From assembly GCA_963575645.1 (NCBI GenBank), contig OY754472.1, positions 25,979,401-26,043,400 of the forward strand: a stretch of 64,000 nucleotides of DNA. The letters run 5' to 3'. Positions 29,391-54,475 of the stretch are shown one piece after another. The stretch comes from Xanthostigma xanthostigma (Eukaryota; Arthropoda; Insecta; Raphidioptera; Raphidiidae). The notes under the pieces are model-generated. The model was not told the origin of the DNA. It searched no databases and saw nothing but the letters and a program-made list of their open reading frames with translations. A program made the position numbers and the translations under genes. The first letter of the stretch is position 1; each line of letters opens with the position of its first letter.

Positions 29391-31414
29391 TGCATTTTCT
29401 TATGAGAGCATGATCGAAACCTGAATGTTATAGTTTAAGTAAACTTACCTTTGTAAAATAAAGCAATTTTGCCTATAAGGACTCATTTGCACCTAATTGT
29501 CGTAAAGCGTGTAAAAACTGCTTGTCTGCGTTAAAATAATGGTTAATATGCAGTTTGCATTTTCCTATGAGAGAATGATCCAAACCTGAATGTTATAGTG
29601 TAACTAGACTAACCCTCATGAAATAAAGCAATTTTGCCTATCAGGACTCATTTGCACCTAATTGTCATAAAGCATGTAAAAACTGCTTGTAGGCGTTAAA
29701 ATAATGGTTAATATGCAGTTTGCATTTTCTTATGAGAGAATGATCAAAACCTGAATTTTATAGAATAAGTAAACTTACCTTTGTGAAATAAAGCAATTTT
29801 GCCTATAAGGACTCATTTGCACCTAATTGTCGTAAAGCATGTAAAAACTGCTTGTCTGCGTTAAAATAATGGTTAATATGCAGTTTGCATTTTCCTATGA
29901 GAGAATGATCCAAACCTGAATGTTATAGTGTAACTAGACTTACCTTCATGAAATAAAGCAATTTTGCCTATAAGGACTCATTTGCCTTTAATTGTCATAA
30001 AGCATGTAAAAACTGCTTGTATGCGTTAAAATAATGGTTAATATGCAGTTTGCATTTTCTTATGAGAGAATGATCCAAACCTGAATGTTATAGTATAAAT
30101 AGACTAACCATCATGAAATAAAGCAATTTTGCCTATAAGGACTCATTTGCACCTAATTGTCATAAAGCTTGTAAAAACTGTTTGTATGCGTTAAAATAAT
30201 GGTTAATATGCAGTTTGCATTTTCTTATGAGAGCATGATCGAAACCTGAATGTTATAGTTTAAGTAAACTTACCTTTGTAAAATAAAGCAATTTTGCCTA
30301 TAAGGACTCATTTGCACCTAATTGTCGTAAAGCGTGTAAAAACTGCTTGTCTGCGTTAAAATAATGGTTAATATGCAGTTTGCATTTTCCTATGAGAGAA
30401 TGATCCAAACCTGAATGTTATAGTGTAACTAGACTAACCCTCATGAAATAAAGCAATTTTGCCTATCAGGACTCATTTGCACCTAATTGTCATAAAGCAT
30501 GTAAAAACTGCTTGTAGGCGTTAAAATAATGGTTAATATGCAGTTTGCATTTTCTTATGAGAGAATGATCCAAACCTGAATTTTATAGAATAAGTAAACT
30601 TACCTTTGTGAAATAAAGCAATTTTGCCTATAAGGACTCATTTGCACCTAATTGTCGTAAAGCATGTAAAAACTGCTTGTCTGCGTTAAAATAATGGTTA
30701 ATATGCAGTTTGCATTTTCCTATGAGAGAATGATCCAAACCTGAATGTTATAGTGTAACTAGACTTACCTTCATGAAATAAAGCAATTTTGCCTATAAGG
30801 ACTCATTTGCCTTTAATTGTCATAAAGCATGTAAAAACTGCTTGTATGCGTTAAAATAATGGTTAATATGCAGTTTGCATTTTCTTATGAGAGAATGATC
30901 CAAACCTGAATGTTATAGTGTAAATAGACTTACCTTTGTAAAATAAAGCAATTTTGCCAATAAGGACTCATTTGCACGCAAATGTCGTGAAGCATGTAAA
31001 AACTGCTTGTATGCGTTAAAATAATGGTAAATTCGCAGTTTGCATTTTCTTATGAGAGAAGGATATAAACCTAAATGTTATATTGTAAATAGACTTACCT
31101 TCATAAAATAAAGCAATTTTGCCTATAAAGACTCATTTGCCCCTCATTGTCATAAAGCAGGTAAAAAGTGCTTGTATGCGTTAAAATAATAGTTAATATG
31201 CAGTTTGCATTTTCTTATGAGAGAATGATCCAAACCTGAATGTTATAGTGTAAATTGACTTACCTTTGTAAAATAAAGCAATTTTGCCTATAAGGACTCA
31301 TTTGCACGCAATTGTCGTGAAGCATGTAAAAACTGCTTGTCTGCGTTAAAATAATGGTTAATATGCAGTTTGCATTTTCTTATGAGAGAATGATCCAAAC
31401 CTGAATGTTATAGT
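29391..31414 (+). repeat. Block copied from about 5,136-7,159 (+24,255)
   Basis: The variant order GAGCATGATCG, GATCAAAACCTGAATTTT, CCTTTAATTG, GAGCATGATCG, ACGCAAATG and GGTAAATTCGCAG follows 5,136-7,159 at exactly 147 monomers. It ends where TAGTCTAAAT (7,157) is replaced by TAGTGAAAGT here (31,412). Small private changes include GGTAAAAAGTGC at about 31,160. Confidence 0.75.
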
Positions 31415-33190
31415 GAAAGTAGACTTACCTTTGTGAAATAAAACAATTTTGCCTTTAAGGACTTATTTGCACCTAATTGTCGTGAACCATGTAAAAACCG
31501 CTTGTCTGCGTGAAAATGATTGTCAATATTCAGTTTGCATTTTCTTATGAGAGAATGATCCAAACCTGAATATTATAGTGTAAATAGACTTACCCTCATG
31601 AAATAAAGCAATTTTGCCTATAAGGACTCATTTGCACCTAATTGTCATAAAGCATGTAAAAACTGCTTGTATGCGTTAAAATAATAGTTAATATGCAGTT
31701 TGCATTTTCTTGTGAGAGAATGATCCAAACCTGAATGTTATAGTGTAAGTAAACTTACCTTTGTAAAATAAAGCAATTTTGCCTATAAGGACTCATTTGC
31801 CCCTAATTGTCATAAAGCATGTAAAAACTGCTTGTATGCGTTAAAATAATGGTTAATATGCAGTTTGCATTTTCTTATGAGAGAATGATCTAAACCTGAA
31901 TGTTATAGTCTAAATAGACTTACCTTTGAAAAATAAAGCAATTTTGCCTATAAGGACTCATTTGCACGCAATTGTCGTGAAGCATGTAAAAACTGCTTGT
32001 CTGCGTTAAAATGATAGTAAATATGCAGTTTTCATTTTCTTATGAGAGAATGATCCAAACCTGAATGTTATAGTGTAAATAGACTAACCCTCATGAAATA
32101 AAGCAATATTGCCTATCAGGACTCATTTGCACCTAATTGTCATAAAGCATGTAAAAACTGCTTGTAGGCGTTAAAATAATGGTTAATATGCAGTTTGCAT
32201 TTTCTTATGAGAGAATGATCCAAACCTGAATGTTATAGTGAAAGTAGACTTACCTTTGTGAAATAAAACAATTTTGCCTTTAAGGACTTATTTGCACCTA
32301 ATTGTCGTAAACCATGTAAAAACCGCTTGTCTGCGTGAAAATGATAGTCAATATTCAGTTTGCATTTTCTTATGAGAGAATGATCTAAACCTGAATATTA
32401 TAGTGTAAATAGACTTACCCTCATGAAATAAAGCAATTTTGCCTATAAGGACTTATTTGCACCTAATTGTCATAAAGCATGTAAAAACTGCTTGTATGCG
32501 TTAAAATAATAGTTAATATGCAGTTTGCATTTTCTTGTGAGAGAATGATCCAAACCTGAATGTTATAGTGTAAGTAAACTTACCTTTGTAAAATAAAGCA
32601 ATTTTGCCTATAAGGACTCATTTGCACCTAATTGTCGTAAAGCATGTAAAAACTGCCTGTCTGCGTTAAAATAATGGTTAATCTGCAGTTTGCATTTTCT
32701 TATGAGAGAATAATCCAAACCTGAATGTTATAGTGTAAGTAAACTTACCTTTGTAAAATAAAGCAATTTTGCCTATAAGGACTCATTTGCCCCTAATTGT
32801 CATAAAGCATGTAAAAACTGCTTGTATGCGTTAAAATAATGGTTAATATGCAGTTTGCATTTTTTTATGAGAGAATGATCTAAACCTGAATGTTATAGTG
32901 TAAATAGACTTACCCTCATGAAATCAGGCAATTTTTCCTATACTAACTCATTTGCCCCTAATTGTCATAAAGCATGTAAAAACTGCTTGTATGCGTTAAA
33001 ATAATGGTTAATATGCAGTTTGCATTTTCTTATGAGAGAATGATCCAAACCTGAATGTTATAGTCTAAATAGACTTACCTTTGAAAAATAAAGCAATTTT
33101 GCCTATAAGGACTCATTTGCACGCAATTGTCGTGAAGCATGTAAAAACTGCTTGTCTGCGTTAAAATGATAGTAAATATGCAGTTTGCAT
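31415..33190 (+). repeat. Block copied from about 2,870-4,645 (+28,545)
   Basis: Starts with the GTGAAAGTAGAC monomer and follows the 2,870-4,645 order at 173 monomers, including AAATCAGGC at 32,923 (4,378 in the source). It ends near 33,190, where the TTTTATAGAATAAG monomer appears in place of the source's AATAATCC monomer. A local cluster of changes sits at about 32,934-32,948 (TTTTTCCTATACTAACTC). Confidence 0.72.
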
Positions 33191-33418
33191 TTTCTTATGA
33201 GAGAATGATCCAAACCTGAATTTTATAGAATAAGTAAACTTACCTTTGTGAAATAAAGCAATTTTGCCTATAAGGACTCATTTGTACCTAATTGTCGTAA
33301 AGCATGTAAAAACTGCTTTTCTGCGTTAAAATAATGGTTAATATGCAGTTTGCATTTTCTTATGAGAGAATAATCCAAACCTGAATTATATAGTGTAAAT
33401 AGACTAACCTTCATTAAA

Positions 33419-33424
33419 TAAAAG
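33419..33424 (+). other. Satellite phase break, +1 bp
   Basis: TTAAATAAAAGCAATTTTG has one A more than the normal TTAAATAAAGCAATTTTG. Monomer starts shift from position 1 modulo 165 to position 2 after this point. It is the first indel in more than 200 monomers. Confidence 0.85.
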
Positions 33425-35417
33425 CAATTTTGCCTATAAGGACTCATTTGCCCCTAATTGTCATAAAGCATGTAAAAACTGCTTGTATGCGTTAAAATAA
33501 TGGTTAATATGCAGTTTGCATTTTCTTATGAGAGAATGATCCAAACCTGAATGTTATAGTATAAATAGACTAACCATCATGAAATAAAGCAATTTTGCCT
33601 ATAAGGACTCATTTGCACCTAATTGTCATAAAGCTTGTAAAAACTGTTTGTATGCGTTAAAATAATAGTTAATATGCAGTTTGCATTTTCTTATGAGAGC
33701 ATGATCGAAACCTGAATGTTATAGTTTAAGTAAACTTACCTTTGTAAAATAAAGCAATTTTGCCTATAAGGACTCATTTGCACCTAATTGTCGTAAAGCG
33801 TGTAAAAACTGCTTGTCTGCGTTAAAATAATGGTTAATATGCAGTTTGCATTTTCCTATGAGAGAATGATCCAAACCTGAATGTTATAGTGTAACTAGAC
33901 TAACCCTCATGAAATAAAGCAATTTTGCCTATCAGGACTCATTTGCACCTAATTGTCATAAAGCATGTAAAAACTGCTTGTAGGCGTTAAAATAATGGTT
34001 AATATGCAGTTTGCATTTTCTTATGAGAGACTGATCCAAACCTGAATTTTATAGAATAAGTAAACTTACCTTTGTGAAATAAAGCAATTTTGCCTATAAG
34101 GACTCATTTGCACCTAATTGTCGTAAAGCATGTAAAAACTGCTTGTCTGCGTTAAAATAATGGTTAATATGCAGTTTGCATTTTCCTATGAGAGAATGAT
34201 CCAAACCTGAATGTTATAGTGTAACTAGACTTACCTTCATGAAATAAAGCAATTTTGCCTATAAGGACTCATTTGCCTTTAATTGTCATAAAGCATGTAA
34301 AAACTGCTTGTATGCGTTAAAATAATGGTTAATATGCAGTTTGCATTTTCTTATGAGAGAATGATCCAAACCTGAATGTTATAGTGTAAATAGACTTACC
34401 TTTGTAAAATAAAGCAATTTTGCCTATAAGGACTCATTTGCACGCAAATGTCGTGAAGCATGTAAAAACTGCTTGTGTGCGTTAAAATAATGGTAAATTC
34501 GCAGTTTGCATTTTCTTATGAGAGAAGGATATAAACCTAAATGTTATATTGTAAATAGACTAACCCTCATGAAATAAAGCAATTTTGCCTATAAGGACTC
34601 ATTTGCACCTAATTGTCATAAAGCTTGTAAAAACTGCTTGTATGCGTTAAAATAATGGTTAATATGCAGTTTGCATTTTCTGATGAGAGAATAATCCAAA
34701 CCTGAATTATATAGTGTAAATAGACTTACCTTCATAAAATAAAGCAATTTTGCCTATAAAGACTCATTTGCCCCTCATTGTCATAAAGCAGGTAAAAACT
34801 GCTTGTATGCGTTAAAATAATAGTTAATATGCAGTTTGCATTTTCTTATGAGAGAATGATCCAAACCTGAATGTTATAGTGTAAATTGACTTACCTTTGT
34901 AAAATAAAGCAATTTTGCCTATAAGGACTCATTTGCACGCAATTGTCGTGAAGCATGTAAAAACTGCTTGTCTGCGTTAAAATAATAGTTAATATGCAGT
35001 TTGCATTTTCTTATGAGAGAATGATCCAAACCTGAATGTTATAGTGAAAGTAGACTTACCTTTGTGAAATAAAACAATTTTGCCTTTAAGGACTTATCTG
35101 CACCTAATTGTCGTAAACCATGTAAAAACCGCTTGTCTGCGTGAAAATGATAGTCAATATTCAGTTTGCATTTTCTTATGAGAGAATGATCCAAACCTGA
35201 ATATTATAGTGTAAATATACTTACCCTCATGAAATAAAGCAATTTTGCCTATAATTACTTATTTGCACCTAATTGTCATAAAGCATGTAAAAACTGCTTG
35301 TATGCGTTAAAATAATAGTTAATATGCAGTTTGCATTTTCTTGTGAGAGAATGATCCAAACCTGAATGTTATAGTGTAAGTAAACTTACCTTTGTAAAAT
35401 AAAGCAATTTTGCCTAT

Positions 35418-35424
35418 AAGTCAT
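35418..35424 (+). other. Satellite phase break, -3 bp
   Basis: CCTATAAGTCATTTGC lacks the GAC of the usual CCTATAAGGACTCATTTGC. It is private to this monomer; the sister block at about 47.5 kb is intact. Confidence 0.85.
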
Positions 35425-38400
35425 TTGCACCTAATTGTCGTAAAGCATGTAAAAACTGCCTGTCTGCGTTAAAATAATGGTTAATATGCAGTTTGCATTT
35501 TCTTATGAGAGAATAATCCAAACCTGAATGTTATAGTGTAAGTAAACTTACCTTTGTAAAATAAAGCAATTTTGCCTATAAGGACTCATTTGCCCCTAAT
35601 TGTCATAAAGCATGTAAAAACTGCTTGTATGCGTTAAAATAATGGTTAATATGCAGTTTGCATTTTTTTATGAGAGAATGATCTAAACCTGAATGTTATA
35701 GTGTAAATAGACTTACCCTCATGAAATCAGGCAATTTTGCCTATAAGGACTCATTTGCCCCTAATTGTCATAAAGCATGTAAAAACTGCTTGTATGCGTT
35801 AAAATAATGGTTAATATGCAGTTTGCATTTTCTTATGAGAGAATGATCCAAACCTGAATGTTATAGTCTAAATAGACTTACCTTTGAAAAATAAAGCAAT
35901 TTTGCCTATAAGGACTCATTTGCACGCAATTGTCGTGAAGCATGTAAAAACTGCTTGTCTGCGTTAAAATGATAGTAAATATGCAGTTTGCATTTTCTTA
36001 TGAGAGAATGATCCAAACCTGAATTTTATAGAATAAGTAAACTTACCTTTGTGAAATAAAGCAATTTTGCCTATAAGGACTCATTTGTACCTAATTGTCG
36101 TAAAGCATGTAAAAACTGCTTTTCTGCGTTAAAATAATGGTTAATATGCAGTTTGCATTTTCTGATGAGAGAATAATCCAAACCTGAATTATATAGTGTA
36201 AATAGACTTACCTTCATAAAATAAAGCAATTTTGCCTATAAAGACTCATTTGCCCCTCATTGTCATAAAGCAGGTAAAAACTGCTTGTATGCGTTAAAAT
36301 AATAGTTAATATGCAGTTTGCATTTTCTTATGAGAGAATGATCCAAACCTGAATGTTATAGTGTAAATTGACTTACCTTTGTAAAATAAAGCAATTTTGC
36401 CTATAAGGACTCATTTGCACGCAATTGTCGTGAAGCATGTAAAAACTGCTTGTCTGCGTTAAAATAATGGTTAATATGCAGTTTGCATTTTCTTATGAGA
36501 GAATGATCCAAACCTGAATGTTATAGTGAAAGTAGACTTACCTTTGTGAAATAAAACAATTTTGCCTTTAAGGACTTATTTGCACCTAATTGTCGTAAAC
36601 CATGTAAAAACCGCTTGTCTGCGTGAAAATGATAGTCAATATTCAGTTTGCATTTTCTTATGAGAGAATGATCTAAACCTGAATATTATATTGTAAATAG
36701 ACTTACCCTCATGAAATAAAGCAATTTTGCCTATAAGGACTTATTTGCACCTAATTGTCATAAAGCATGTAAAAACTGCTTGTATGCGTTAAAATAATAG
36801 TTAATATGCAGTTTGCATTTTCTTGTGAGAGAATGATCCAAACCTGAATGTTATAGTGTAAGTAAACTTACCTTTGTAAAATAAAGCAATTTTGCCTATA
36901 AGGACTCATTTGCACCTAATTGTCGTAAAGCATGTAAAAACTGCCTGTCTGCGTTAAAATAATGGTTAATATGCAGTTTGCATTTTCTTATGAGAGAATA
37001 ATCCAAACCTGAATGTTATAGTGTAAGTAAACTTACCTTTGTAAAATAAAGCAATTTTGCCTATAAGGACTCATTTGCCCCTAATTGTCATAAAGCATGT
37101 AAAAACTGCTTGTATGCGTTAAAATAATGGTTAATATGCAGTTTGCATTTTTTTATGAGAGAATGATCTAAACCTGAATGTAATAGTGTAAATAGACTTA
37201 CCCTCATAAAATCAGGCAATTTTGCCTATAAGGACTCATTTGCCCCTAATTGTCATAAAGCATGTAAAAACTGCTTGTATGCGTTAAAATAATGGTTAAT
37301 ATGCAGTTTGCATTTTCTTATGAGAGAATGATCCAAACCTGAATGTTATAGTCTAAATAGACTTACCTTTGAAAAATAAAGCAATTTTGCCTATAAGGAC
37401 TCATTTGCACGCAATTGTCGTGAAGCATGTAAAAACTGCTTGTCTGCGTTAAAATGATAGTAAATATGCAGTTTGCATTTTCTTATGAGAGAATGATCCA
37501 AACCTGAATTTTATAGAATAAGTAAACTTACCTTTGTGAAATCTAGCAATTTTGCCTATAAGGACTCATTTGTACCTAATTGTCGTAAAGCATGTAAAAA
37601 CTGCTTTTCTGCGTTAAAATAATGGTTAATATGCAGTGTGCATTTTCTTATGAGAGAATAATCCAAACCTGAATTATATAGTGTAAATAGACTAACCTTC
37701 ATTAAATAAAGCAATTTTGCCTATAAGGACTCATTTGCCCATAATTGTCATAAAGCATGTAAAAACTGCTTGTATGCGTTAAAATAATGGTTAATATGCA
37801 GTTTGCATTTTCTTATGAGAGAATGATCCAAACCTGAATGTTATAGTGTAAATTGACTTACCTTTGTAAAATAAAGCAATTTTGCCTATAAGGACTCATT
37901 TGCACGCAATTGTCGTGAAGCATGTAAAAACTGCTTGTCTGCGTTAAAATAATGGTTAATATGCAGTTTGCATTTTCTTATGAGAGAATGATCCAAACCT
38001 GAATGTTATAGTGAAAGTAGACTTACCTTTGTGAAATAAAACAATTTTGCCTTTAAGGACTTATTTGCACCTAATTGTCGTAAACTATGTAAAAACCGCT
38101 TGTCTGCGTGAAAATGATAGTCAATATTCAGTTTGCATTTTCTTATGAGAGAATGATCCAAACCTGAATATTATAGTGTAAATAGACTTACCCTCATGAA
38201 ATAAAGCAATTTTGCCTATAAGGACTCATTTGCACCTAATTGTCATAAAGCATGTAAAAACTGCTTGTATGCGTTAAAATAATAGTTAATATGCAGTTTG
38301 CATTTTCTTGTGAGAGAATGATCCAAACCTGAATGTTATAGTGTAAGTAAACTTACCTTTGTAAAATAAAGCAATTTTGCCTATAAGGACTCATTTGCCC

Positions 38401-40476
38401 CTAATTGTCATAAAGCATGTAAAAACTGCTTGTATGCGTTAAAATAATGGTTAATATGTAGTTTGCATTTTCTTATGAGAGAATGATCCAAACCTGAATG
38501 TTATAGTCTAAATAGACTTACCTTTGAAAAATAAAGCAATTTTGCCTATAAGGACTCATTTGCACGCAATTGTCGTGAAGCATGTAAAAACTGCTTGTCT
38601 GCGTTAAAATGATAGTAAATATGCAGTTTCCATTTTCTTATGAGAGAATGATCCAAACCTGAATGTTATAGTGTAAATAGACTAACCCTCATGAAATAAA
38701 GCAATTTTGCCTATCAGGACTCATTTGCACCTAATTGTCATAAAGCATGTAAAAACTGCTTGTAGGCGTTAAAATAATGGTTAATATGCAGTTTGCATTT
38801 TCTTATGAGAGAATAATCCAAACCTGAATTTTATAGAATAAGTAAACTTACCTTTGTGAAATAAAGCAATTTTGCCTATAAGGACTCATTTGTACCTAAT
38901 TGTCGTAAAGCATGTAAAAACTGCTTTTCTGCGTTAAAATAATGGTTAATATGCAGTTTGCATTTTCTTATGAGAGAATAATCCAAACCTGAATTATATA
39001 GTGTAAATAGACTAACCTTCATTAAATAAAGCAATTTTGCCTATAAGGACTCATTTGCCCCTAATTGTCATAAAGCATGTAAAAACTGCTTGTATGCGTT
39101 AAAATAATGGTTAATATGCAGTTTGCATTTTCTAATGAGAGAATGATCCAAACCTGAATGTTATAGTATAAATAGACTAACCATCATGAAATAAAGCAAT
39201 TTTGCCTATAAGGACTCATTTGCACCTAATTGTCGTAAAGCATGTAAAAACTGCTTGTCTGCGTTAAAATAATGGTTAATATGCAGTTTGCATTTTCCTA
39301 TGAGAGAATGATCCAAACCTGAATGTTATAGTGTAACTAGACTTACCTTCATGAAATAAAGCAATTTTGCCTATAAGGACTCATTTGCCTTTAATTGTCA
39401 TAAAGCATGTAAAAACTGCTTGTATGCGTTAAAATAATGGTTAATATGCAGTTTGCATTTTCTTATGAGAGAATGATCCAAACCTGAATGTTATAGTGTA
39501 AATAGACTTACCTTTGTAAAATAAAGCAATTTTGCCTATAAGGACTCATTTGCACGCAAATGTCGTGAAGCATGAAAAAACTGCTTGTATGCGTTAAAAT
39601 AATGGTAAATTCGCAGTTTGCATTTTCTTATGAGAGAAGGATATAAACCTAAATGTTATATTGTAAATAGACTAACCCTCATGAAATAAAGCAATTTTGC
39701 CTATAAGGACTCATTTGCACCTAATTGTCATAAAGCTTGTAAAAACTGCTTGTATGCGTTAAAATAATGGTTAATATGCAGTTTGCATTTTCTGATGAGA
39801 GAATAATCCAAACCTGAATTATATAGTGTAAATAGACTTACCTTCATAAAATAAAGCAATTTTGCCTATAAAGACTCATTTGCCCCTCATTGTCATAAAG
39901 CAGGTAAAAACTGCTTGTATGCGTTAAAATAATAGTTAATATGCAGTTTGCATTTTCTTATGAGAGAATGATCCAAACCTGAATGTTATAGTGTAAATTG
40001 ACTTACCTTTGTAAAATAAAGCAATTTTGCCTATAAGGACTCATTTGCACGCAATTGTCGTGAAGCATGTAAAAACTGCTTGTCTGCGTTAAAATAATGG
40101 TTAATATGCAGTTTGCATTTTCCTATGAGAGAATGATCCAAACCTGAATGTTATAGTGAAAGTAGACTTACCTTTGTGAAATAAAACAATTTTGCCTTTA
40201 AGGACTTATTTGCACCTTATTGTCGTAAACCATGTAAAAACCGCTTGTCTGCGTGAAAATGATAGTCAATATTCAGTTTGCATTTTCTTATGAGAGAATG
40301 ATCCAAACCTGAATATTATAGTGTAAATAGACTTACCCTCATGAAATAAAGCAATTTTGCCTATAAGGACTCATTTGCACCTAATTGTCATAAAGCATGT
40401 AAAAACTGCTTGTATGCGGTAAAATAATAGTTAATATGCAGTTTGCATTTTCTTGTGAGAGAATGATCCAAACCTG

Positions 40477-40485
40477 AATGTTATA
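40477..40485 (+). repeat. Probable target-site duplication, left copy
   Basis: AATGTTATA directly before the element. The right flank begins AATATTATA, one mismatch in nine. The empty paralogue at about 49.6 kb has one copy of AATGTTATA at this place, which supports a duplication made by insertion. If the element is taken as the symmetric TTCAAAG...CTTTGAA, the duplication is seven bases (TGTTATA/TATTATA); only TTATA is an exact match. Confidence 0.6.
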
Positions 40486-41077
40486 TTCAAAGCAATGGCA
40501 CGTCAATCCGGTGTTGGAGAGGCAACCGGATGGCGAGTGGTAATCTGGGCCTATGAGTGGTGCAGAACCCCCTGGTAGCGCCCAAAGTGACCCCAAATGG
40601 ACGGGGGCGGCGATATGGGGGTGGGACAAAATCGAAAAATGTTTGAAAAGGCAACCGGATAAAAATGCGGTTGCATTGAAGGAAATACCCTAATTATATA
40701 ATAAATTTTTTTTGCCATCCGAAACACGCGGGTCGTTTTTGCACTAGCGAATAAAAAAAAAATAAAAAAAAAACTGAAAAGGCAACCGCTTCAAAATTAG
40801 TGAGCATACTTATTGACACCACCAAACGTTGGAAAAAAATTGCCATCCGATCCTGATGGGCAGTTTCGGAGAAACAACCCCTCAAAGTCGCCGAAAAACC
40901 CTTTTTTTCGATTTTTTCAACAATAAGTAAAAAAAACACACTAAAAATTGTTCAAATCGGATGGCATTCGAAATTTATACTGTCCTAAGTACAAATAATA
41001 GTGTGTATCAATGCCATCCGATTTCGATTAAATTTACCCCTATTTAGCCACCCCCCAAAACTCATGAAAATAACAAT
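40486..41077 (+). repeat. Foldback element, left inverted arm
   Basis: Runs from TTCAAAGCAATGG to about AATAACAAT. Order of parts: the terminal TTCAAAG block, a GGCAACCGGATGG motif (40,521), a G-rich patch (40,603-40,625), a second GGCAACCGGAT (40,650), TGCCATCCGA (40,713), long A runs (about 40,752-40,774), GGCAACCG (40,781), TGCCATCCGA (40,841), its complement (40,957) and TGCCATCCGA (41,012). About nine of the roughly 15 arm differences fall in the outer 170 bp; the inner part is nearly identical to the right arm. Confidence 0.88.
40713..41021. promoter_or_regulatory. Decamer motif cluster in left foldback arm (possible protein-binding sites)
   Basis: TGCCATCCGA occurs exactly at 40,713, 40,841 and 41,012, and as TCGGATGGCA at 40,957. 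A related GGCAACCGGA motif lies at 40,521 and 40,650, with GGCAACCG at 40,781. Repeated short motifs in long terminal repeats of DNA elements often bind the transposase; that role is inferred here only from arrangement. Confidence 0.55.
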
Positions 41078-41103
41078 TTTATGCAGCGTATGGCATTTTT
41101 TTT
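41078..41103. other. Foldback element, central loop
   Basis: About 26 bp of unpaired sequence between the arms, around ATGCAGCGTATGGCA. It contains a partial version (TATGGCA) of the decamer found in the arms. Just outside the loop, the left arm has four extra bases (TGAA within CTCATGAAAATAACAAT) that the right arm lacks. Confidence 0.75.
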
Positions 41104-41687
41104 ATTGTTATTGAGTTTTGGGGGTTGGCTAAATAGGGGTAAATTTAATCAAAATCGGATGGCATTGATACACACTATTATTTGTACTTAGGACAGTATA
41201 AATTTCGAATGCCATCCGATTTGAACAATTTTTAGTGTGTTTTTTTACTTATTGTTGAAAAAATCGAAAAAAAGGGTTTTTCGGCGACTTTGAGGGGTTG
41301 TTTCTCCGAAACTGCCCATCAGGATCGGATGGCAATTTTTTTCCAACGTTTGGTGGTGTCAATAAGTATGCTCACTAATTTTGAAGCGGTTGCCTTTTCA
41401 GTTTTTTTTATTTTTTTTTTATTCGCTAGAGCAAAAACGGCCCGCGTGTTTCGGATGGCAAAAAAAAATTGTTATATAATTAGGGTATTTCCTTCAATGC
41501 AACCGCATTTTTATCCGGTTGCCTTTTCAAACTTTTTTTGATTTTTCCCCACCCCCATATCGCCGCCCCCGTCCATTTGGGGTCACTTGGGTCGCTACCA
41601 GGGGGTTCTGCACCACTCATAGGCCCAGATTACCACTCGCCATCCGGTTGCCTTTCCGACACCTGATTGACGTGCCATTGCTTTGAA
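41104..41687 (-). repeat. Foldback element, right inverted arm
   Basis: Reverse complement of the left arm, from ATTGTTATTGAG to GCTTTGAA. Decamer copies mirror the left arm at 41,155, 41,210, 41,325 and 41,451. Differences from the left arm include CAGGTGTCGG against CCGGTGTTGG (read on the left-arm strand), and shorter A/T runs. Confidence 0.88.
41155..41460. promoter_or_regulatory. Decamer motif cluster in right foldback arm
   Basis: Mirror set of the left cluster: TCGGATGGCA at 41,155, 41,325 and 41,451, and TGCCATCCGA at 41,210. All four are exact matches, so the motif is kept in both arms, although other positions differ between them. A binding role is inferred only. Confidence 0.55.
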
Positions 41688-41694
41688 TATTATA
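41686..41694 (+). repeat. Probable target-site duplication, right copy
   Basis: AATATTATA directly after GCTTTG. The first two bases may belong to the element end rather than the duplication. The single difference from the left copy (A for G) is also a common satellite variant (GAATATTATAG), so mutation and conversion from a neighbour are both possible. Confidence 0.55.
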
Positions 41695-42030
41695 GTGTAA
41701 GTAAACTTACCTTTGTAAAATAAAGCAATTTTGCCTATAAGGACTCATTTGCACCTAATTGTCGTAAAGCATGTAAAAACTGCCTGTCTGCGTTAAAATA
41801 ATGGTTAATATGCAGTTTGCATTTTCTTATGAGAGAATAATCCAAACCTGAATATTATAGTGTAAATAGACTAACCTTCATGAAATAAGGCAATTTTGCC
41901 TATAAGGACTCATTTGCCCCTAATTGTCATAAAGCATGTAAAAACTGCTTGTATGCGTTAAAATAATGGTTAATATGCAGTTTGCATTTTGTTATGAGAG
42001 AATGATCTAAACCTGAATGTTATAGTGTAA

Positions 42031-42690
42031 ATAGACTTACCCTCATGAAATCAGGCAATTTTGCCTATAAGGACTCATTTGCCCCTAATTGTCATAAAGC
42101 ATGTAAAAACTGCTTGTATGCGTTTAAATAATGGTTAATATGCAGTTTGCATTTTCTTATGAGAGAATGATCCAAACCTGAATGATATAGTGTAAATAGA
42201 CTTACCTTTGAAAAATAAAGCAATTTTGCCTATAAGGACTCATTTGCACGCAATTGTCGTGAAGCATGTAAAAACTGCTTGTCTGCGTTAAAATAATGGT
42301 TAATATGCAGTTTGCATTTTCCTATGAGAGAATGATCCAAACCTGAATGTTATAGTGTAACTAGACTTACCCTCATGAAATCAGGCAATTTTGCCTATAA
42401 GGACTCATTTGCCCCTAATTGTCATAAAGCATGTAAAAACTGCTTGTATGCGATAAAATAATGGTTAATATGCAGTTTGCATTTTCTTATGAGAGAATGA
42501 TCCAAACCTGAATGATATAGTGTAAATAGACTTACCTTTGAAAAATAAAGCAATTTTGCCTATAAGGACTCATTTGCACGCAATTGTCGTGAAGCATGTA
42601 AAAACTGCTTGTCTGCGTTAAAATAATGGTTAATATGCAGTTTGCATTTTCCTATGAGAGAATGATCCAAACCTGAATGTTATAGTGTAA
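42031..42690 (+). repeat. Two-monomer (330 bp) tandem duplication
   Basis: The pair with CCTCATGAAATCAGG followed by AATGATATAG, CTTTGAAAAATAAAG and ACGCAATTGTCGTG is present twice in a row: CCTCATGAAATCAGG starts at 42,041 and 42,371, exactly 330 bp apart. Copies differ at GCGTTTAAATAATGG (first) against GCGATAAAATAATGG (second). It starts about 340 bp right of the foldback element. Confidence 0.8.
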
Positions 42691-43930
42691 CTAGACTTAC
42701 CTTCATGAAATAAAGCAATTTTGCCTATAAGGACTCATTTGCCTTTAATTGTCATAAAGCATGTAAAAACTGCTTGTATGCATTAAAATAATGGTTAATA
42801 TGCAGTTTGCATTTTCTTATGAGAGAATGATCCAAACCTGAATGTTATAGTGTAAATAGACTTACCTTTGTAAAATAAAGCAATTTTGCCAATAAGGACT
42901 CATTTGCACGCAAATGTCGTGAAGCATGTAAAAACTGCTTGTATGCGTTAAAATAATGGTAAATTCGCAGTTTGCATTTTCTTATGAGAGAAGGATATAA
43001 ACCTAAATGTTATATTGTAAATAGACTTACCTTCATAAAATAAAGCAATTTTGCCTATAAAGACTCATTTGCCCCTCATTGTCATAAAGCAGGTAAAAAC
43101 TGCTTGTATGCGTTAAAATAATAGTTAATATGCAGTTTGCATTTTCTTATGAGAGAATGATCCAAACCTGAATGTTATAGTGTAAATTGACTTACCTTTG
43201 TAAAATAAAGCAATTTTGCCTATAAGGACTCATTTGCACGCAATTGTCGTGAAGCATGTAAAAACTGCTTGTCTGCGTTAAAATAATGGTTAATATGCAG
43301 TTTGCATTTTCTTATGAGAGAATGATCCAAACCTGAATGTTATAGTGAAAGTAGACTTACCTTTGTGAAATAAAACAATTTTGCCTTTAAGGACTTATTT
43401 GCACCTAATTGTCGTGAACCATGTAAAAACCGCTTGTCTGCGTGAAAATGATAGTCAATATTCAGTTTGCATTTTCTTATGAGAGAATGATCCAAACCTG
43501 AATATTATAGTGTAAATAGACTTACCCTCATGAAATAAAGCAATTTTGCCTATAAGGACTCATTTGCACCTAATTGTCATAAAGCATGTAAAAACTGCTT
43601 GTATGCGTTAAAATAATAGTTAATATGCAGTTTGCATTTTCTTGTGAGAGAATGATCCAAACCTGAATGTTATAGTGTAAGTAAACTTACCTTTGTAAAA
43701 TAAAGCAATTTTGCCTATAAGGACTCATTTGCCCCTAATTGTCATAAAGCATGTAAAAACTGCTTGTATGCGTTAAAATAATGGTTAATATGCAGTTTGC
43801 ATTTTCTTATGAGAGAATGATCCAAACCTGAATGTTATAGTCTAAATAGACTTACCTTTGAATAATAAAGCAATTTTGCCTATAAGGACTCATTTGCACG
43901 CAATTGTCGTGAAGCATTAAAAAACTGCTT

Positions 43931-45590
43931 GTAGGCGTTAAAATAATGGTTAATATGCAGTTTGCATTTTCTTATGAGAGAATGATCCAAACCTGAATGT
44001 TATAGTGAAAGTAGACTTACCTTTGTGAAATAAAACAATTTTGCCTTTAAGGACTTATTTGCACCTAATTGTCGTAAACCATGTAAAAACCGCTTGTCTG
44101 CGTGAAAATGATAGTCAATATTCAGTTTGCATTTTCTTATGAGAGAATGATCTAAACCTGAATATTATAGTGTAAATAGACTTACCCTCATGAAATAAAG
44201 CAATTTTGCCTATAAGGACTTATTTGCACCTAATTGTCATAAAGCATGTAAAAACTGCTTGTATGCGTTAAAATAATAGTTAATATGCAGTTTGCATTTT
44301 CTTGTGAGAGAATGATCCAAACCTGAATGTTATAGTGTAAGTAAACTTACCTTTGTAAAATAAAGCAATTTTGCCTATAAGGACTCATTTGCACCTAATT
44401 GTCGTAAAGCATGTAAAAACTGCCTGTCTGCGTTAAAATAATGGTTAATCTGCAGTTTGCATTTTCTTATGAGAGAATAATCCAAACCTGAATGTTATAG
44501 TGTAAGTAAACTTACCTTTGTAAAATAAAGCAATTTTGCCTATAAGGACTCATTTGCCCCTAATTGTCATAAAGCATGTAAAAACTGCTTGTATGCGTTA
44601 AAATAATGGTTAATATGCAGTTTGCATTTTTTTATGAGAGAATGATCTAAACCTGAATGTTATAGTGTAAATAGACTTACCCTCATGAAATCAGGCAATT
44701 TTGCCTATAAGGACTCTTTTGCCCCTAATTGTCATAAAGCATGTAAAAACTGCTTGTATGCGTTAAAATTATGGCTAATATGCAGTTTGCATTTTCTTGT
44801 GAGAGAATGATCCAAACCTGAATGTTATAGTGTAAGTAAACTTACCTTTGTAAAATAAAGCAATTTTGCCTATAAGGACTCATTTGCACCTAATTGTCGT
44901 AAAGCATGTAAAAACTGCCTGTCTGCGTTAAAATAATGGTTAATCTGCAGTTTGCATTTTCTTATGAGAGAATAATCCAAACCTGAATGTTATAGTGTAA
45001 GTAAACTTACCTTTGTAAAATAAAGCAATTTTGCCTATAAGGACTCATTTGCCCCTAATTGTCATAAAGCATGTAAAAACTGCTTGTATGCGTTAAAATA
45101 ATGGTTAATATGCAGTTTGCATTTTCTTATGAGAGAATGATCCAAACCTGAATGTTATAGTCTAAATAGACTTACCTTTGAAAAATAAAGCAATTTTGCC
45201 TATAAGGACTCATTTGCACGCAATTGTCGTGAAGCATGTAAAAACTGCTTGTAGGCGTTAAAATAATGGTTAATATGCAGTTTGCATTTTCTTATGAGAG
45301 AATGATCCAAACCTGAATGTTATAGTGAAAGTAGACTTACCTTTGTGAAATAAAACAATTTTGCCTTTAAGGACTTATTTGCACCTAATTGTCGTAAACC
45401 ATGTAAAAACCGCTTGTCTGCGTGAAAATGATAGTCAATATTCAGTTTGCATTTTCTTATGAGAGAATGATCTAAACCTGAATATTATAGTGTAAATAGA
45501 CTTACCCTCATGAAATAAAGCAATTTTGCCTATAAGGACTTATTTGCACCTAATTGTCATAAAGCATGTAAAAACTGCTTGTATGCGTTA
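43931..45590 (+). repeat. Nested 8-monomer and 3-monomer duplications
   Basis: The TTGTAGGCG plus GTGAAAGTAGAC pair near 43,930-44,270 recurs at about 45,250-45,590 (+1,320, 8 monomers). Inside, the rare TTAATCTGCAG monomer occurs at about 44,445 and 44,940 (+495, 3 monomers). The same rare variant is also at about 32,681, pointing to the source. GCATTAAAAAACTG at about 43,914 is private to the first copy. Confidence 0.72.
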
Positions 45591-46399
45591 AAATAATGGT
45601 TAATATGCAGTTTGCATTTTCTTATGAGAGAATGATCCAAACCTGAATGTTATAGTATAAATAGACTAACCATCATGAAATAAAGCAATTTTGCCTATAA
45701 GGACTCATTTGCACCTAATTGTCATAAAGCTTGTAAAAACTGTTTGTATGCGTTAAAATAATAGTTAATATGCAGTTTGCATTTTCTTATGAGAGCATGA
45801 TCGAAACCTGAATGTTATAGTTTAAGTAAACTTACCTTTGTAAAATAAAGCAATTTTGCCTATAAGGACTCATTTGCACCTAATTGTCGTAAAGCGTGTA
45901 AAAACTGCTTGTCTGCGTTAAAATAATGGTTAATATGCAGTTTGCATTTTCCTATGAGAGAATGATCCAAACCTGAATGTAATAGTGTAACTAGACTAAC
46001 CCTCATGAAATAAAGCAATATTGCCTATCAGGACTCATTTGCACCTAATTGTCATAAAGCATGTAAAAACTGCTTGTAGGCGTTAAAATAATGGTTAATA
46101 TGCAGTTTGCATTTTCTTATGAGAGAATGATCCAAACCTGAATTTTATAGAATAAGTAAACTTACCTTTGTGAAATAAAGCAATTTTGCCTATAAGGACT
46201 CATTTGCACCTAATTGTCGTAAAGCATGTAAAAACTGCTTGTCTGCGTTAAAATAATGGTTAATATGCAGTTTGCATTTTCCTATGAGAGAATGATCCAA
46301 ACCTGAATGTTATAGTGTAACTAGACTTACCTTCATGAAATAAAGCAATTTTGCCTATAAGGACTCATTTGCCTTTAATTGTCATAAAGCATGTAAAAA

Positions 46400-48120
46400 C
46401 TGCTTGTATGCGTTAAAATAATGGTTAATATGCAGTTTGCATTTTCTTATGAGAGAATGATCCAAACCTGAATGTTATAGTGTAAATAGACTTACCTTTG
46501 TAAAATAAAGCAATTTTGCCTATAAGGACTCATTTGCACGCAAATGTCGTGAAGCATGTAAAAACTGCTTGTGTGCGTTAAAATAATGGTAAATTCGCAG
46601 TTTGCATTTTCTTATGAGAGAAGGATATAAACCTAAATGTTATATTGTAAATAGACTAACCCTCATGAAATAAAGCAATTTTGCCTATAAGGACTCATTT
46701 GCACCTAATTGTCATAAAGCTTGTAAAAACTGCTTGTATGCGTTAAAATAATGGTTAATATGCAGTTTGCATTTTCTGATGAGAGAATAATCCAAACCTG
46801 AATTATATAGTGTAAATAGACTTACCTTCATAAAATAAAGCAATTTTGCCTATAAAGACTCATTTGCCCCTCATTGTCATAAAGCAGGTAAAAACTGCTT
46901 GTATGCGTTAAAATAATAGTTAATATGCAGTTTGCATTTTCTTATGAGAGAATGATCCAAACCTGAATGTTATAGTGTAAATTGACTTACCTTTGTAAAA
47001 TAAAGCAATTTTGCCTATAAGGACTCATTTGCACGCAATTGTCGTGAAGCATGTAAAAACTGCTTGTCTGCGTTAAAATAATGGTTAATATGCAGTTTGC
47101 ATTTTCTTATGAGAGAATGATCCAAACCTGAATGTTATAGTGAAAGTAGACTTACCTTTGTGAAATAAAACAATTTTGCCTTTAAGGACTTATTTGCACC
47201 TAATTGTCGTAAACCATGTAAAAACCGCTTGTCTGCGTGAAAATGATAGTCAATATTCAGTTTGCATTTTCTTATGAGAGAATGATCTAAACCTGAATAT
47301 TATAGTGTAAATAGACTTACCCTCATGAAATAAAGCAATTTTGTCTATAAGGACTTATTTGCACCTAATTGTCATAAAGCATGTAAAAACTGCTTGTATG
47401 CGTTAAAATAATAGTTAATATGCAGTTTGCATTTTCTTGTGAGAGAATGATCCAAACCTGAATGTTATAGTGTAAGTAAACTTACCTTTGTAAAATAAAG
47501 CAATTTTGCCTATAAGGACTCATTTGCACCTAATTGTCGTAAAGCATGTAAAAACTGCCTGTCTGCGTTAAAATAATGGTTAATATGCAGTTTGCATTTT
47601 CTTATTAGAGAATAATCCAAACCTGAATGTTATAGTGTAAGTAAACTTACCTTTGTAAAATAAAGCAATTTTGCCTATAAGGACTCATTTGCCCCTAATT
47701 GTCATAAAGCATGTAAAAACTGCTTGTATGCGTTAAAATAATAGTTAATATGCAGTTTGCATTTTTTTATGAGAGAATGATCTAAACCTGAATGTTATAG
47801 TGTAAATAGACTTACCCTCATGAAATCAGGCAATTTTGCCTATAAGGACTCATTTGCCCCTAATTGTCATAAAGCATGTAAAAACTGCTTGTATGCGTTA
47901 AAATAATGGTTAATATGCAGTTTGCATTTTCTTATGAGAGAATGATCCAAACCTGAATGTTATAGTCTAAATAGACTTACCTTTGAAAAATAAAGCAATT
48001 TTGCCTATAAGGACTCATTTGCACGCAATTGTCGTGAAGCATGTAAAAACTGCTTGTCTGCGTTAAAATGATAGTAAATATGCAGTTTGCATTTTCTTAT
48101 GAGAGAATGATCCAAACCTG
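46400..48120 (+). repeat. Block duplicated from about 34,300-36,020
   Basis: Both blocks carry the rare TTGTGTGCG before a GGTAAATTCGCAG monomer (34,487 and 46,583), followed by TAACCCTCATG and TTTTCTGATGAGAG. AAATCAGGC follows at 35,726 and 47,825. After removing the 1,209-bp insertion and the 3-bp loss at about 35,420, the spacing is 66 monomers. The loss at 35,420 is absent here, so it arose after the duplication or was converted back. Confidence 0.75.
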
Positions 48121-48789
48121 AATTTTATAGAATAAGTAAACTTACCTTTGTGAAATCTGGCAATTTTGCCTATAAGGACTCATTTGTACCTAATTGTCGT
48201 AAAGCATGTAAAAACTGCTTTTCTGCGTTAAAATAATGGTTAATATGCAGTGTGCATTTTCTTATGAGAGAATAATCCAAACCTGAATTATATAGTGTAA
48301 ATAGACTAACCTTCATTAAATAAAGCAATTTTGCCTATAAGGACTCATTTGCCCCTAATTGTCATAAAGCATGTAAAAACTGCTTGTATGCGTTAAAATA
48401 ATGGTTAATATGCAGTTTGCATTTTCTTATGGGAGAATGATCCAAACCTGAATGTTATAGTATAAATAGACTAACCATCATGAAATAAAGCAATTTTGCC
48501 TATAAGGACTCATTTGCACCTAATTGTCATAAAGCTTGTAAAAACTGTTTGTATGCGTTAAAATAATAGTTAATATGCAGTTTGCATTTTCTTATGAGAG
48601 CATGATCGAAACCTGAATGTTATAGTTTAAGTAAACTTACCTTTGTAAAATAAAGCAATTTTGCCTATTAGGACTCATTTGCACCTAATTGTCGTAAAGC
48701 GTGTAAAAACTGCTTGTCTGCGTTAAAATAATGGTTAATATGCAGTTTGCTTTTTCCTATGAGAGAATGATCCAAACCTGAATGTTATA

Positions 48790-50126
48790 TTGTAAATAGA
48801 CTAACCCTCATGAAATAAAGCAATTTTGCCTATAAGGACTCATTTGCACCTAATTGTCATAAAGCTTGTAAAAACTGCTTGTATGCGTTAAAATAATGGT
48901 TATAATGCAGTTTGCATTTTCTGATGAGAGAATAATCCAAACCTGAATTATATAGTGTAAATAGACTTACCTTCATAAAATAAAGCAATTTTGCCTATAA
49001 AGACTCATTTGCCCCTCATTGTCATAAAGCAGGTAAAAACTGCTTGTATGCGTTAAAATAATAGTTAATATGCAGTTTGCATTTTCTTATGAGAGAATGA
49101 TCCAAACCTGAATGTTATAGTGTAAATTGACTTACCTTTGTAAAATAAAGCAATTTTGCCTATAAGGACTCATTTGCACGCAATTGTCGTGAAGCATGTA
49201 AAAACTGCTTGTCTGCGTTAAAATAATGGTTAATATGCAGTTTGCATTTTCTTATGAGAGAATGATCCAAACCTGAATGTTATAGTGAAAGTAGACTTAC
49301 CTTTGTGAAATAAAACAATTTTGCCTTTAAGGACTTATTTGCACCTAATTGTCGTAAACCATGTAAAAACCGCTTGTCTGCGTGAAAATGATAGTCAATA
49401 TTCAGTTTGCATTTTCTTATGAGAGAATGATCCAAACCTGAATATTATAGTGTAAATAGACTTACCTTCATGAAATAAAGCAATTTTGCCTATAAGGACT
49501 CATTTGCACCTAATTGTCATAAAGCATGTAAAAACTGCTTGTATGCGGTAAAATAATAGCTAATATGCAGTTTGCATTTTCTTGTGAGAGAATGATCCAA
49601 ACCTGAATGTTATAGTGTAAGTAAACTTACCTTTGTAAAATAAAGCAATTTTGCCTATAAGGACTCATTTGCACCTAATTGTCGTAAAGCATGTAAAAAC
49701 TGCCTGTCTGCGTTAAAATAATGGTTAATATGCAGTTTGCATTTTCTTATGAGAGAATAATCCAAACCTGAATATTATAGTGTAAATAAACTAACCTTCA
49801 TGAAATAAGGCAATTTTGTCTATAAGGACTCATTTGCCCCTAATTGTCATAAAGCATGTAAAAACTGCTTGTATGCGTTAAAATAATGGTTAATATGCAG
49901 TTTGCATTTTGTTATGAGAGAATGATCTAAACCTGAATGTTATAGTGTAAATAGACTTACCCTCATGAAGTCAGGCAATTTTGCCTATAAGGACTCATTT
50001 GCCCCTAATTGTCATAAAGCATGTAAAAACTGCTTGTATGCGTTTAAATAATGGTTAATATGCAGTTTGCATTTTCTTATGAGAGAATGATCCAAACCTG
50101 AATGATATAGTGTAAATAGACTTACC
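48790..50126 (+). repeat. Satellite block with empty insertion site
   Basis: Paralogue of the occupied block. At the matching position it reads CCTGAATGTTATAGTGTAAG, with no insert and no footprint. Hence the block duplication most likely came before the insertion, unless one copy was later restored by conversion. Private changes here include CATGAAGTCAGG (about 49,964) and AATAGCTAATATG (about 49,555). Confidence 0.85.
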
Positions 50127-50379
50127 TTCATGAAATAAAGCAATTTTGCCTATAAGGACTCATTTGCCCCTAATTGTCATAAAGCATGTAAAAACTGCTT
50201 GTATGCGTTAAAATAATGGTTAATATGCAGTTTGCATTTTCTTATGAGAGAATGATCCAAACCTGAATGTTATAGTCTAAATAGACTTATCTTTGAAAAA
50301 TAAAGCAATTTTGCCTATAAGGACTCATTTGCACGCAATTGTCGTGAAGCATGTAAAAACTGCTTGTCTGCGTTAAAAT

Positions 50380-51230
50380 GATAGTAAATATGCAGTTTGC
50401 ATTTTCTTATGAGAGAATGATCCAAACCTGAATGTTATAGTGTAAATAGACTAACCCTCATGAAATAAAGCAATTTTGCCTATCAGGACTCATTTGCACC
50501 TAATTGTCATAAAGCTTGTAAAAACTGCTTGTATGCGTTAAAATAATGGTTAATATGCAGTTTGCATTTTCTTATGAGATAATGATCCAAACCTAAAAGA
50601 TATAGTGTAAATAAACTAACCCTCATGAAATAAAGCAATTTTGCCAATAAGGACTCATTTGCACCTAATTGTCATAAAGCTTGTAAAAACTGCTTGTCTG
50701 CGTTAAAATAATGGTTAAAATGCAGTTTGCATTTTCTTATGAGAGAATGATCCAAACCTGAATGTTATAGTGTAATTAGACTTACCCTCATGAAATAAAA
50801 TAATTTTGCCGATAAGGACTCTATTGCACCTAATTGTCGTAAAGCATGTAAAAACTGCTTGTCTGCTTTAAAATAATGGTTAATATGCAGTTTGCATTTT
50901 CTTATGAGAGAATGATCCAAACCTGAATGTTATAGTGTAAATAGACTTAACTTCATGAAATAAAGCAATTTTGCCTATAAGGACTCATTTGCCCCTAATT
51001 GTCATAAAGCATGTAAAAACTGCTTGTATGCGTTAAAATTATGGCTAATATGCAGTTTGCATTTTCTTATGGGATAATGATCCAAACCTAAAAGATATAG
51101 TGTAAATAGACTAACCCTCATGAAATAAAGCAATTTTGCCTATAAGGACTCATTTGCACCTAATTGTCATAAAGCTTGTAAAAACTGCTTGTCTGCGTTA
51201 AAATAATGGTTAAAATGCAGTTTGCATTTT
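50380..51230 (+). repeat. Block repeated near 56,650-57,500 (+6,272)
   Basis: A five-monomer run starting with GATAATGATCC, CCTAAAAGATATAG and the rare TAAATAAACTAACCC, then GTTAAAATGCAG with CCGATAAGGACTC, TCTGCTTTAAA and TAACTTCATG. The offset of 6,272 is 38 monomers plus the two 1-bp gains at about 53,570 and 55,716. It also resembles 1-500. Confidence 0.7.
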
Positions 51231-52329
51231 CTTATGAGAGAATGATCCAAACCTGAATGTTATAGTGTAAATAGACTTACCTTCATGAAATAAAGCAATT
51301 TTGCCTATAAGGACTTATTTGCCCCTAATTGTCATAAAGCATGTAAAAACTGCTTGTATGCGTTAAAATATTGGTTAATATGCAGTTTGCATTTTCTTAT
51401 GAGAGAATGATCCAAACCTGAATGTTATAGTGTAAATAGACTTACCCTCATGAAATAAAGCAATTTTGCCGATAAGGACTCATTTGCACCTAATTGTCAT
51501 AAAGCATGTAAAAACTGCTTGTATGCGTTAAAATGATAGTAAATATGCAGTTTGCATTTTCTTATGAGAGAATGATCCAAACCTAAATGTTATAGTGTAA
51601 ATAGACTCACCTTCATGAAATAAAGCAATTTTGCATATAAGGACTCATTTGCCCCTAATTGTCATAAAGGATGTAAAAACTGCTTGTATGCGTTAAAATA
51701 ATGGTTAACATGCAGTTTGCATTTTCTTATGAGAGAATGATCCAAACCTGAATGGTATAGTGTAAATAGACTTACCCTCATGAAATAATGCAATTTTGTC
51801 TATAAGGACTTATTTGCACCTAATTGTCGTAAACCATGTAAAAACTGCTTGTCTGCGTGAAAATGATAGTCAATATTCAGTTTGCATTTTCTTATGAGAG
51901 AATGATCCAAACCTGAATGTTATAGTGTAAACAGACTTACCCTCATGAAATAAAGTAATTTTGCCTATAAGGACTCATTTGCACCTAATTGTCATAAAGC
52001 ATGTAAAAACTGCTTGTATGCGTTAAAATAATGGTTAATATGCAGTTTGCATTTTCTTATGAGAGAATGATCCAAACCTGAATTATATAGTGTAAATAGA
52101 CTAACCTTCATGAAATAAAGCAATTTTGACTATAAGGACTCATTTGCCCCTAATTGTCATAAAGCATGTAAAAACTGCTTGTAGGTGTTAAAATAATGGT
52201 TAATATGCAGTTTGCATTTTCTTATGAGAGAATGATCCAAACCTGAATTTTATAGTATAAGTAAACTTACCTTTGTGAAATAAAGCAATTTTGCCTATAA
52301 AGACTCATTTGTACCTAATTGTCGTAAAG

Positions 52330-54475
52330 CATGTAAAAACTGCTTTTCTGCGTTAAAATAATGGTTAATATGCAGTTTGCATTTTCTTATGAGAGAATAA
52401 TCCAAACCTGAATTATATAGTGTAAATAGACTAACCTTCATTAAATAAAGCAATTTCGCCTATAAGGACTCATTTGCCCCTAATTGTCATAAAGCATGTA
52501 AAAACTGCTTGTATGCGTTAAAATAATGGTTAATATGCAGTTTGCATTTTCTTATGAGAGAATGATCCAAACCTGAATGTTATAGTATAAATAGACTAAC
52601 CATCATGAAATAAAGCAATTTTGCCTATAAGGACTCATTTGCACCTAATTGTCATAAAGCTTGTAAAAACTGTTTGTTAGCGTTAAAATAATAGTTAATA
52701 TGCAGTTTGCATTTTCTTATGAGAGCATGATCGAAACCTGAATGTTATAGTATAAGTAAACTTACCTTTGTAAAATAAAGTAATTTTGCCTATAAGGACT
52801 CATTTGCACCTAATTGTCGTAAAGCATGTAAAAACTGCTTGTCTGCGTTAAAATAATGGTTAATATGCAGTTTGCATTTTCCTATGAGAGAATGATCCAA
52901 ACCTGAATGTTATAGTGTAACTAGACTTACCTTCATGAAATAAAGCAATTTTGCCTATAAGGACTCATTTGCCTTTAATTGTCATAAAGCATGTAAAAAC
53001 TGCTTGTATGCGTTAAAATAATGGTAAATTCGCAGTTTTCATTTTCTTATGAGAGAAGGATATAAACCTAAATGTTATATTGTAAATAGACTAACCCTCA
53101 TGAAATAAAGCAATTTTGCCTATAAGGACTCATTTGCACCTAATTGTCATAAAGCTTGTAAAAACTGCTTGTATGCGTTAAAATAATGGTTAATATGCAG
53201 TTTGCATTTTCTGATGAGAGAATAATCCAAACCTGAATTATATAGTGTAAATAGACTTACCTTCATAAAATAAAGCAATTTTGCCTATAAAGACTCATTT
53301 GCCCCTCATTGTCATAAAGCATGTAAAAACTGCTTGTATGCGTTAAAATAATAGTTAATATGCAGTGTGCATTATCTTATGAGAGAATGATCCAAGCCTG
53401 AATGTTATAGTGTAAATTGACTTACCTTTGTAAAATAAAGCAATTTTGCCTATAAGGACTCATTTGCACGCAATTGTCGTAAAGCATGTAAAAACTGCTT
53501 GTCTGCGTTAAAATAATGGTTAATATGCAGTTTGCATTTTCTTATGAGAGAATGATCCAAACCTGAATGTATATAGTGAAAGTAGACTTACCTTTGTGAA
53601 ATAAAACAATTTTGCCTTTAAGGACTTATTTGCACCTAATTGTCGTAAACCATGTAAAAACCGCTTGTCTGCGTGAAAATGATAGTCAATATTCAGTTTG
53701 CATTTTCTTATGAGAGAATGATCCAAACCTGAATATTATAGTGTAAATAGACTTACCCTCATGAAATAAAGCAATTTTGCCTATAAGGACTCATTTGCAC
53801 CTAATTGTCATAAAGCATGTAAAAACTGCCTGTATGCGTTAAAATAATAGTTAATATGCAGTTTGCATTTTCTTGTGAGAGAATGATCCAAACCTGAATG
53901 TTATAGTGTAAGTAAACTTACCTTTGTAAAATAAAGCAATTTTGCCTATAAGGACTCATTTGCACCTAATTGTCGTAAAGCATGTAAAAACTGCTTGTCT
54001 GCGTTAAAATAATGGTTAATATGCAGTTTGCATTTTCTTATGAGAGAATAATCCAAACCTGAATGTTATAGTGTAAATAGACTAACCTTCATGAAATAAA
54101 GCAATTTTGCCTATAAGGACTCATTTGCCCCTACTTGTCATAAAGCATGTAAAAACTGCTTGTATGCGTTAAAATAATGGTTAATATGCAGTTTGCATTT
54201 TTTTATGAGAAAATGATCTAAACCTGAATGTTATAGTGTAAATAGACTTACCCTCATGAAATAAAGCAATTTTGCCTATAAGGACTCATTTGCCCCTAAT
54301 TGTCATAAAGCATGTAAAAACTGCTTGTATGCGTTTAAATAATGGTTAATATGCAGTTTGCATTTTCTTATGAGAGAATGATCCAAACCTGAATGATATA
54401 GTGTAAATAGACTTACCTTCATGAAATAAAGCAATTTTGCCTATAAGGACTCATTTGCCCCTAATTGTCATAAAG
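52330..54475 (+). repeat. 13-monomer tandem duplication, copy 1 (2,146 bp)
   Basis: Followed directly by a second copy at +2,146 bp, which is 13 monomers plus a shared 1-bp gain (GAATGTATATAGTG at about 53,566). Shared rare variants are CAATTTCGCC (52,451), AAAGTAATTTTGCC (52,777), GCAGTGTGCATTATC (about 53,365), CCAAGCCTG (53,392) and CCCCTACTTG (54,128). A private change is TTTGTTAGCG at about 52,673, where the other copy reads TTTGTATGCG. Confidence 0.88.

Follow-up and report, generated by a model that had tools for sequence, protein, structure and literature searches.

Results

An insertion into a satellite array

The window, by which we mean the whole stretch of 64,000 nucleotides that was analysed, is occupied by a 165-bp satellite array into which a foldback element has inserted (Table 1). 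Satellite matches over the window all lie in one orientation, and the sole uncovered run of at least 10 bases is 40486-41683. The 381 anchored monomers define 380 intervals, 373 of exactly 165 bp, six of 162-168 bp and one of 1374 bp, that is, 165 + 1209. The single uncovered run and the single aberrant spacing bear out an earlier reading of this DNA, made from its letters alone (the sequence-only reading), in which the element was the only interruption in 64 kb. The insertion added exactly 1209 bases, made up of the 1206-bp element and a 3-bp duplication of TTA, and removal of the element and one TTA gives CCTGAATGTTATAGTG, a stretch present in the satellite consensus. Because the empty site is restored in the satellite and the gain is 1209 bp, the ends of the element and its 3-bp duplication are fixed without relying on other copies. 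These ends, TATTCAAAGC...GCTTTGAATA, extend the element by 2 bp at either side relative to the 40486-41687 proposed earlier.

The element has no blastn match in the first 2 kb of the window, which is satellite. No higher-order period was found in the array, since mean identity stays within 0.905-0.918 whichever monomer lag between 1 and 30 is taken, and among the partly overlapping loci L001-L058 this satellite was found at the window's own locus (L001) only.

Table 1. Coordinates of the features in the window
Feature	Position	Strand	Remarks
165-bp satellite array, host of the insertion	1..64000	+	From satellite matches and anchor spacing
Target site duplication TTA, left	40481..40483	.	3 bp; L001, the window copy
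Complete foldback element	40484..41689	.	1206 bp
Left arm	40484..41076	+	593 bp
Left-arm field of 8 exact GSCAWCCG motifs	40521..41020	.	Either strand; putative transposase-binding repeats
Centre (hairpin loop region)	41077..41096	.	About 20 bp; from arm comparison and hairpin fold
Right arm	41097..41689	-	593 bp; inverted copy of left arm
Target site duplication TTA, right	41690..41692	.	3 bp

Structure of the element

The near-perfect inverted repeat reported earlier is real: the two 593-bp arms of the window element are identical at 572 of 596 aligned columns, 6 of which are gap columns, and a single strand of the whole element is predicted to form one hairpin of -712 kcal/mol (a raw value, without shuffled reference). 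The earlier arm length of about 590 bp was close, while the loop, put at about 26 bp, shrinks to a centre of about 20 bp. The G+C content of the element is 40%, compared with 32% for the window. Within the arm, blastn detected a single short internal repeat (39 bp, 77%), and an ungapped self-match scan revealed no tandem period above threshold. In line with the sequence-only reading, no coding capacity was seen: the longest of the nine listed ORFs of at least 40 aa overlapping it is 83 aa (one of 82 aa extends into the satellite) and there was no Pfam match in the single forward frame scanned, with stops read as X. Likewise, no Rfam match was obtained over 39900-42300.

The left arm carries eight exact GSCAWCCG motifs, starting at 40521, 40527, 40650, 40714, 40781, 40842, 40958 and 41013, where 0.03 would be expected and where 5000 single-base shuffles gave a maximum of 2; with one mismatch, there are 10 compared with 0.7 expected. 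Neighbouring motifs lie, loosely, some 60 bp or double that distance apart, and the motif is absent elsewhere in the window, outside 40401-41800. The counts refer to the window's left arm. By analogy with Galileo, which is reported to have further transposase-binding sites in the repeats of its long TIRs (PMC3688188), the motifs may be read as putative transposase-binding sites.

A dispersed repeat family with 3-bp duplications

The element is repeated across the genome. With up to two mismatches, its terminal 24-mer occurs 529 times forward and 533 times in reverse in the 623-Mb genome, compared with 0 for the reversed control, which would correspond to roughly 530 elements, provided that both ends survive in most of them. 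A genome search with the left arm gave at least 80 matches (40 scored of 806 candidates), on ten contigs. These two results exclude the outcome that no other copy exists, which the sequence-only reading had named as fatal to its interpretation. Among the 100 terminal 24-mer ends listed, all with zero mismatches and on C1 below 55.5 Mb, the adjacent pairs number 35; the length is 1150-1215 bp in 29 and 686, 821, 866, 895, 1688 and 4592 bp in the other six; 30 ends have no partner within 6 kb. At one place on C3 (G000:C3:23716408), two element ends almost abut (TATTCAAAGCAATGGCACATTGCTTT), as if nearly the whole interior had been deleted. No published description of the family was found among the open-licence papers searched, and the family may be catalogued elsewhere. 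According to its description, iMITEdb, a database of insect MITEs, dropped consensus sequences longer than 800 bp (PMC5199201), so that an element of this length would be absent there.

An arm search of the genome, with collection of the copies and their target duplications, had been suggested as a check. All 23 distinct paired copies (both ends required, 3 to 4 mismatches at most, duplicates removed by flank) have an exact 3-bp target site duplication (TSD), and none has one of 4, 5, 6, 7 or 8 bp; this count covers paired copies, the examined loci holding 15 further distinct ends without a partner. With strands merged, the TSDs are TAA/TTA in eight cases, ATA/TAT in seven, AAA/TTT and GTA/TAC in two each, and AAC/GTT, AAT/ATT, ACA/TGT and GAA/TTC in one each (n=23). 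The target is A+T-rich, and C at position -1 and G at position +3, at 0.37 apiece over both orientations, form a weak frame around it. The ends of the 23 paired copies are TATT...AATA, which the search pattern itself contained, at up to 3 mismatches.

Age and origin of the family

The arms of 18 of the 23 paired copies (36 arms) were compared; L009, in which no centre was located, was left out, as were L035, L039, L040 and L057 on account of their size. Left and right refer here to the family orientation, which is set by the centre and is opposite to that of the window. Divergence of the 36 arms from the majority has a mean of 1.6% and a median of 1.5%. Left arms are 0.022 apart and right arms 0.017, and the left-right distance is 0.024 within a copy and 0.030 between copies. 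Four left arms are identical (L005, L006, L019 and L022), and the smallest distance to the left arm of the window copy, 0.17%, is shown by the left arm of L002 (C11). Judged by this 1.6% divergence and by the identity of some arms, the family is a recent burst. Up to the central edge, only columns 549 and 575 separate the left majority from the right one, and at 549 one side is tied at 9:9; the founder was therefore near a perfect palindrome. We infer that one end was recently duplicated in inverted orientation and that this founded the family. There is no need to invoke ongoing homogenisation within copies, though the within-copy distance is slightly smaller than the between-copy one.

Search for a coding relative

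The sequence-only reading had proposed to identify the superfamily through a related autonomous element sharing these ends. This route was tried, and no coding relative was found. Profile searches of the genome gave at least 151 matches to DDE_Tnp_4, at least 95 to DDE_3 and at least 19 to Transposase_1. Of the 24 matches to these three profiles listed on C1, 21 fall within its first 55.5 Mb, none of them less than 20 kb from a listed end; for DDE_Tnp_4, nine are listed on C1, eight of them in the stretch that the 100 listed ends span, and none of these eight comes within 20 kb of a listed end.

Terminal patterns followed by forced mismatches were used to look for relatives that share the ends but differ in the interior, and five such genome searches yielded no paired candidate. 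The numbers of places were 0 (control 1), 11 (control 2), 6 (control 0, each place on a different contig), 0 and 0. Five of the 11 places were inspected, over about 103 bases each: L064 proved to be a diverged arm copy, whereas in L062, L063, L065 and L066 the likeness to the arm stops after about 17-20 bp, with no GSCAWCCG field visible by eye. At two places (C10:19957384-19957418 and C11:2021945-2021979; control 1), the inner arm edge continues into sequence that differs from the known centre. These places could represent longer relatives, small shifts or chance; among the transposase matches listed, none lies near either of them by eye.

ORFs of at least 110 aa were listed in L039-L058 and judged by eye. 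The locus with 4592 bp between its ends (L039) was rejected as a coding relative, being a foldback copy into which a LINE has inserted: the LINE spans about 385-3761, carries ORFs of 549 and 492 aa that look reverse-transcriptase-like and endonuclease-like by eye, and has about 13 bp of arm repeated at its junctions. L043, L049 and L051 have about 1460 bp from the end in common. Because the flanks outside this stretch resemble one another too, as judged by eye, the three were interpreted as a truncated copy sitting inside another repeat. L046 keeps 54 bp of the end and nothing more. Two exact matches in viral_contigs and one in genome_contigs (Ferrimonas) stop at 17-19 bp and were taken as chance.

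Two further features of the transposase matches may be mentioned. A majority of the listed DDE_Tnp_4 (Harbinger) matches, by eye, and several of DDE_3 and Transposase_1 lie at about 8.7-16.4 Mb on C10, a transposon-dense block that is perhaps heterochromatin or a special chromosome; none of the 80 listed arm matches is on C10. Also, a DDE_3 match of 39.3 bits with a 224-aa open frame accounts for 38 of the 95 listed, on C1-C10 and C12, and is apparently a young mariner-type family.

Discussion

Our results make it very probable that the element is a non-autonomous foldback-type DNA transposon, large and MITE-like, which was moved in trans by a DDE transposase cutting with a 3-nt stagger. Its structural kind is that of a foldback or large MITE, with long inverted arms, a short centre, no coding capacity seen, and many dispersed copies with target duplications. 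We envisage that the gene-less element depends on a DDE-type transposase made elsewhere in the genome, which would bind the element ends, probably aided by the repeated GSCAWCCG sites along both arms, excise the element and join it to an A+T-rich target cut with a 3-nt stagger. The window copy would be one such insertion, into a satellite monomer. The family is ordinary in kind: it is a real and recent non-autonomous foldback with 3-bp duplications, to which we assign no superfamily.

As for the source of the transposase, mobilisation by a PIF/Harbinger (PHIS) enzyme is a serious possibility, though we would stop short of calling it probable. It agrees with the 3-bp TSD in 23/23 copies and with TTA/TAA as the commonest TSD class (8/23), and the DDE_Tnp_4 matches (150 candidates scored) include many in long open frames. 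However, the TSD is other than TTA/TAA in 15/23, and the ends are TATT, compared with the G-rich ends reported in Medicago by a survey that filtered for a G-containing end motif (PMC2213677). Moreover, no transposase match was tied to the family ends within the first 55.5 Mb of C1, as judged from the listed ends.

EnSpm/CMC elements also make 3-bp duplications, and EnSpm/CACTA ends are CAC..., which conflicts with TATT here. Another superfamily of 3-bp duplication, whether AcademX, Zator or a relative of EnSpm/CMC, could well have supplied the transposase, without this being the expected answer. The length of the TSD fits, as reported lengths are 0-4 bp for PHIS, 3 bp for Zator and 3-4 bp for AcademX (PMC10045372), and 3 bp for Academ (PMC5199201). 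For Zator, PF07592 (ISAzo13, a relative of Zator) had 0 matches in the genome, but the controls were equally silent. It is conceivable, if rather unlikely, that the transposase represents an undescribed lineage with a 3-nt stagger, A+T-rich and loosely palindromic targets, TATTCAAAG ends and about eight GSCAWCCG sites per arm, and that its element became a foldback by inverted duplication of one end and then multiplied as a near-perfect palindrome.

The length of the duplication speaks against both Mutator and Tc1/mariner. Mutator (MULE) target duplications are about 8-11 bp. The sequence-only reading had suggested a Mutator-like or foldback element; the foldback part stands, given the long near-identical arms, the tiny centre, the copies and their TSDs, and the Mutator-like part is contradicted by a TSD of 3 bp in 23/23. 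A Mutator-like foldback would suit the long TIRs, and most described foldbacks seem to be Mutator (PMC4079207), but with 4-8 bp duplications in 0/23 copies, and 4-10 bp reported for IS256/MuDR elements (PMC10045372), we regard it as very unlikely. Still less credible is a Tc1/mariner MITE with a TA duplication, its boundary lying between TA and TTCAAAG at one end and between CTTTGAA and TA at the other. Although TA is present at the proposed boundary at both ends, the matching 3 bp outside TA in 23/23 copies would be left unexplained, and 1202 + 2 = 1204 added bases would be predicted, whereas the satellite shows 1209 and the empty site needs TTA. Finally, long palindromes are hard to sequence, but an assembly or library artefact can practically be discounted in view of about a thousand ends in the genome, arm matches spread over ten contigs, and copies with individual flanks and exact TSDs.

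The non-autonomous foldback with 3-bp duplications has several implications. As most described foldbacks seem to be Mutator (PMC4079207), the duplications here indicate that long staggers are not a requirement of the foldback form. In addition, with a recent insertion in a clean satellite array, the empty site is known exactly and the array acquires a date marker. Long palindromes, some hundreds of them in a single genome, might also be places where rearrangements occur or double-stranded RNA forms.

Among known systems, Galileo, of the P superfamily in Drosophila, has a TSD of 7 bp, compared with 3 bp here, where moreover no coding copy was found and the arm scan gave no tandem period. The likeness to Galileo lies in its foldback-like long TIRs with repeated internal sites, which are reported to be bound by the Galileo THAP domain (PMC3688188). 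With PIF/Harbinger elements and MITEs the family shares a 3-bp A+T-rich target duplication, but this is TTA/TAA in only 8/23 copies and the ends are TATT; the arms, at 593 bp, also contrast with the 14-25 bp TIRs reported for autonomous PIF/Harbinger elements (PMC2213677). Tetris of Drosophila virilis, as described, is similarly a non-autonomous foldback whose transposase source was not found and which is associated with satellite DNA (PMC4079207). However, it was assigned to Mutator, with TSDs of 8-10 bp rather than 3 bp, and its TIR repeats themselves became satellite-like arrays (PMC4079207), whereas here the satellite merely hosts the element.
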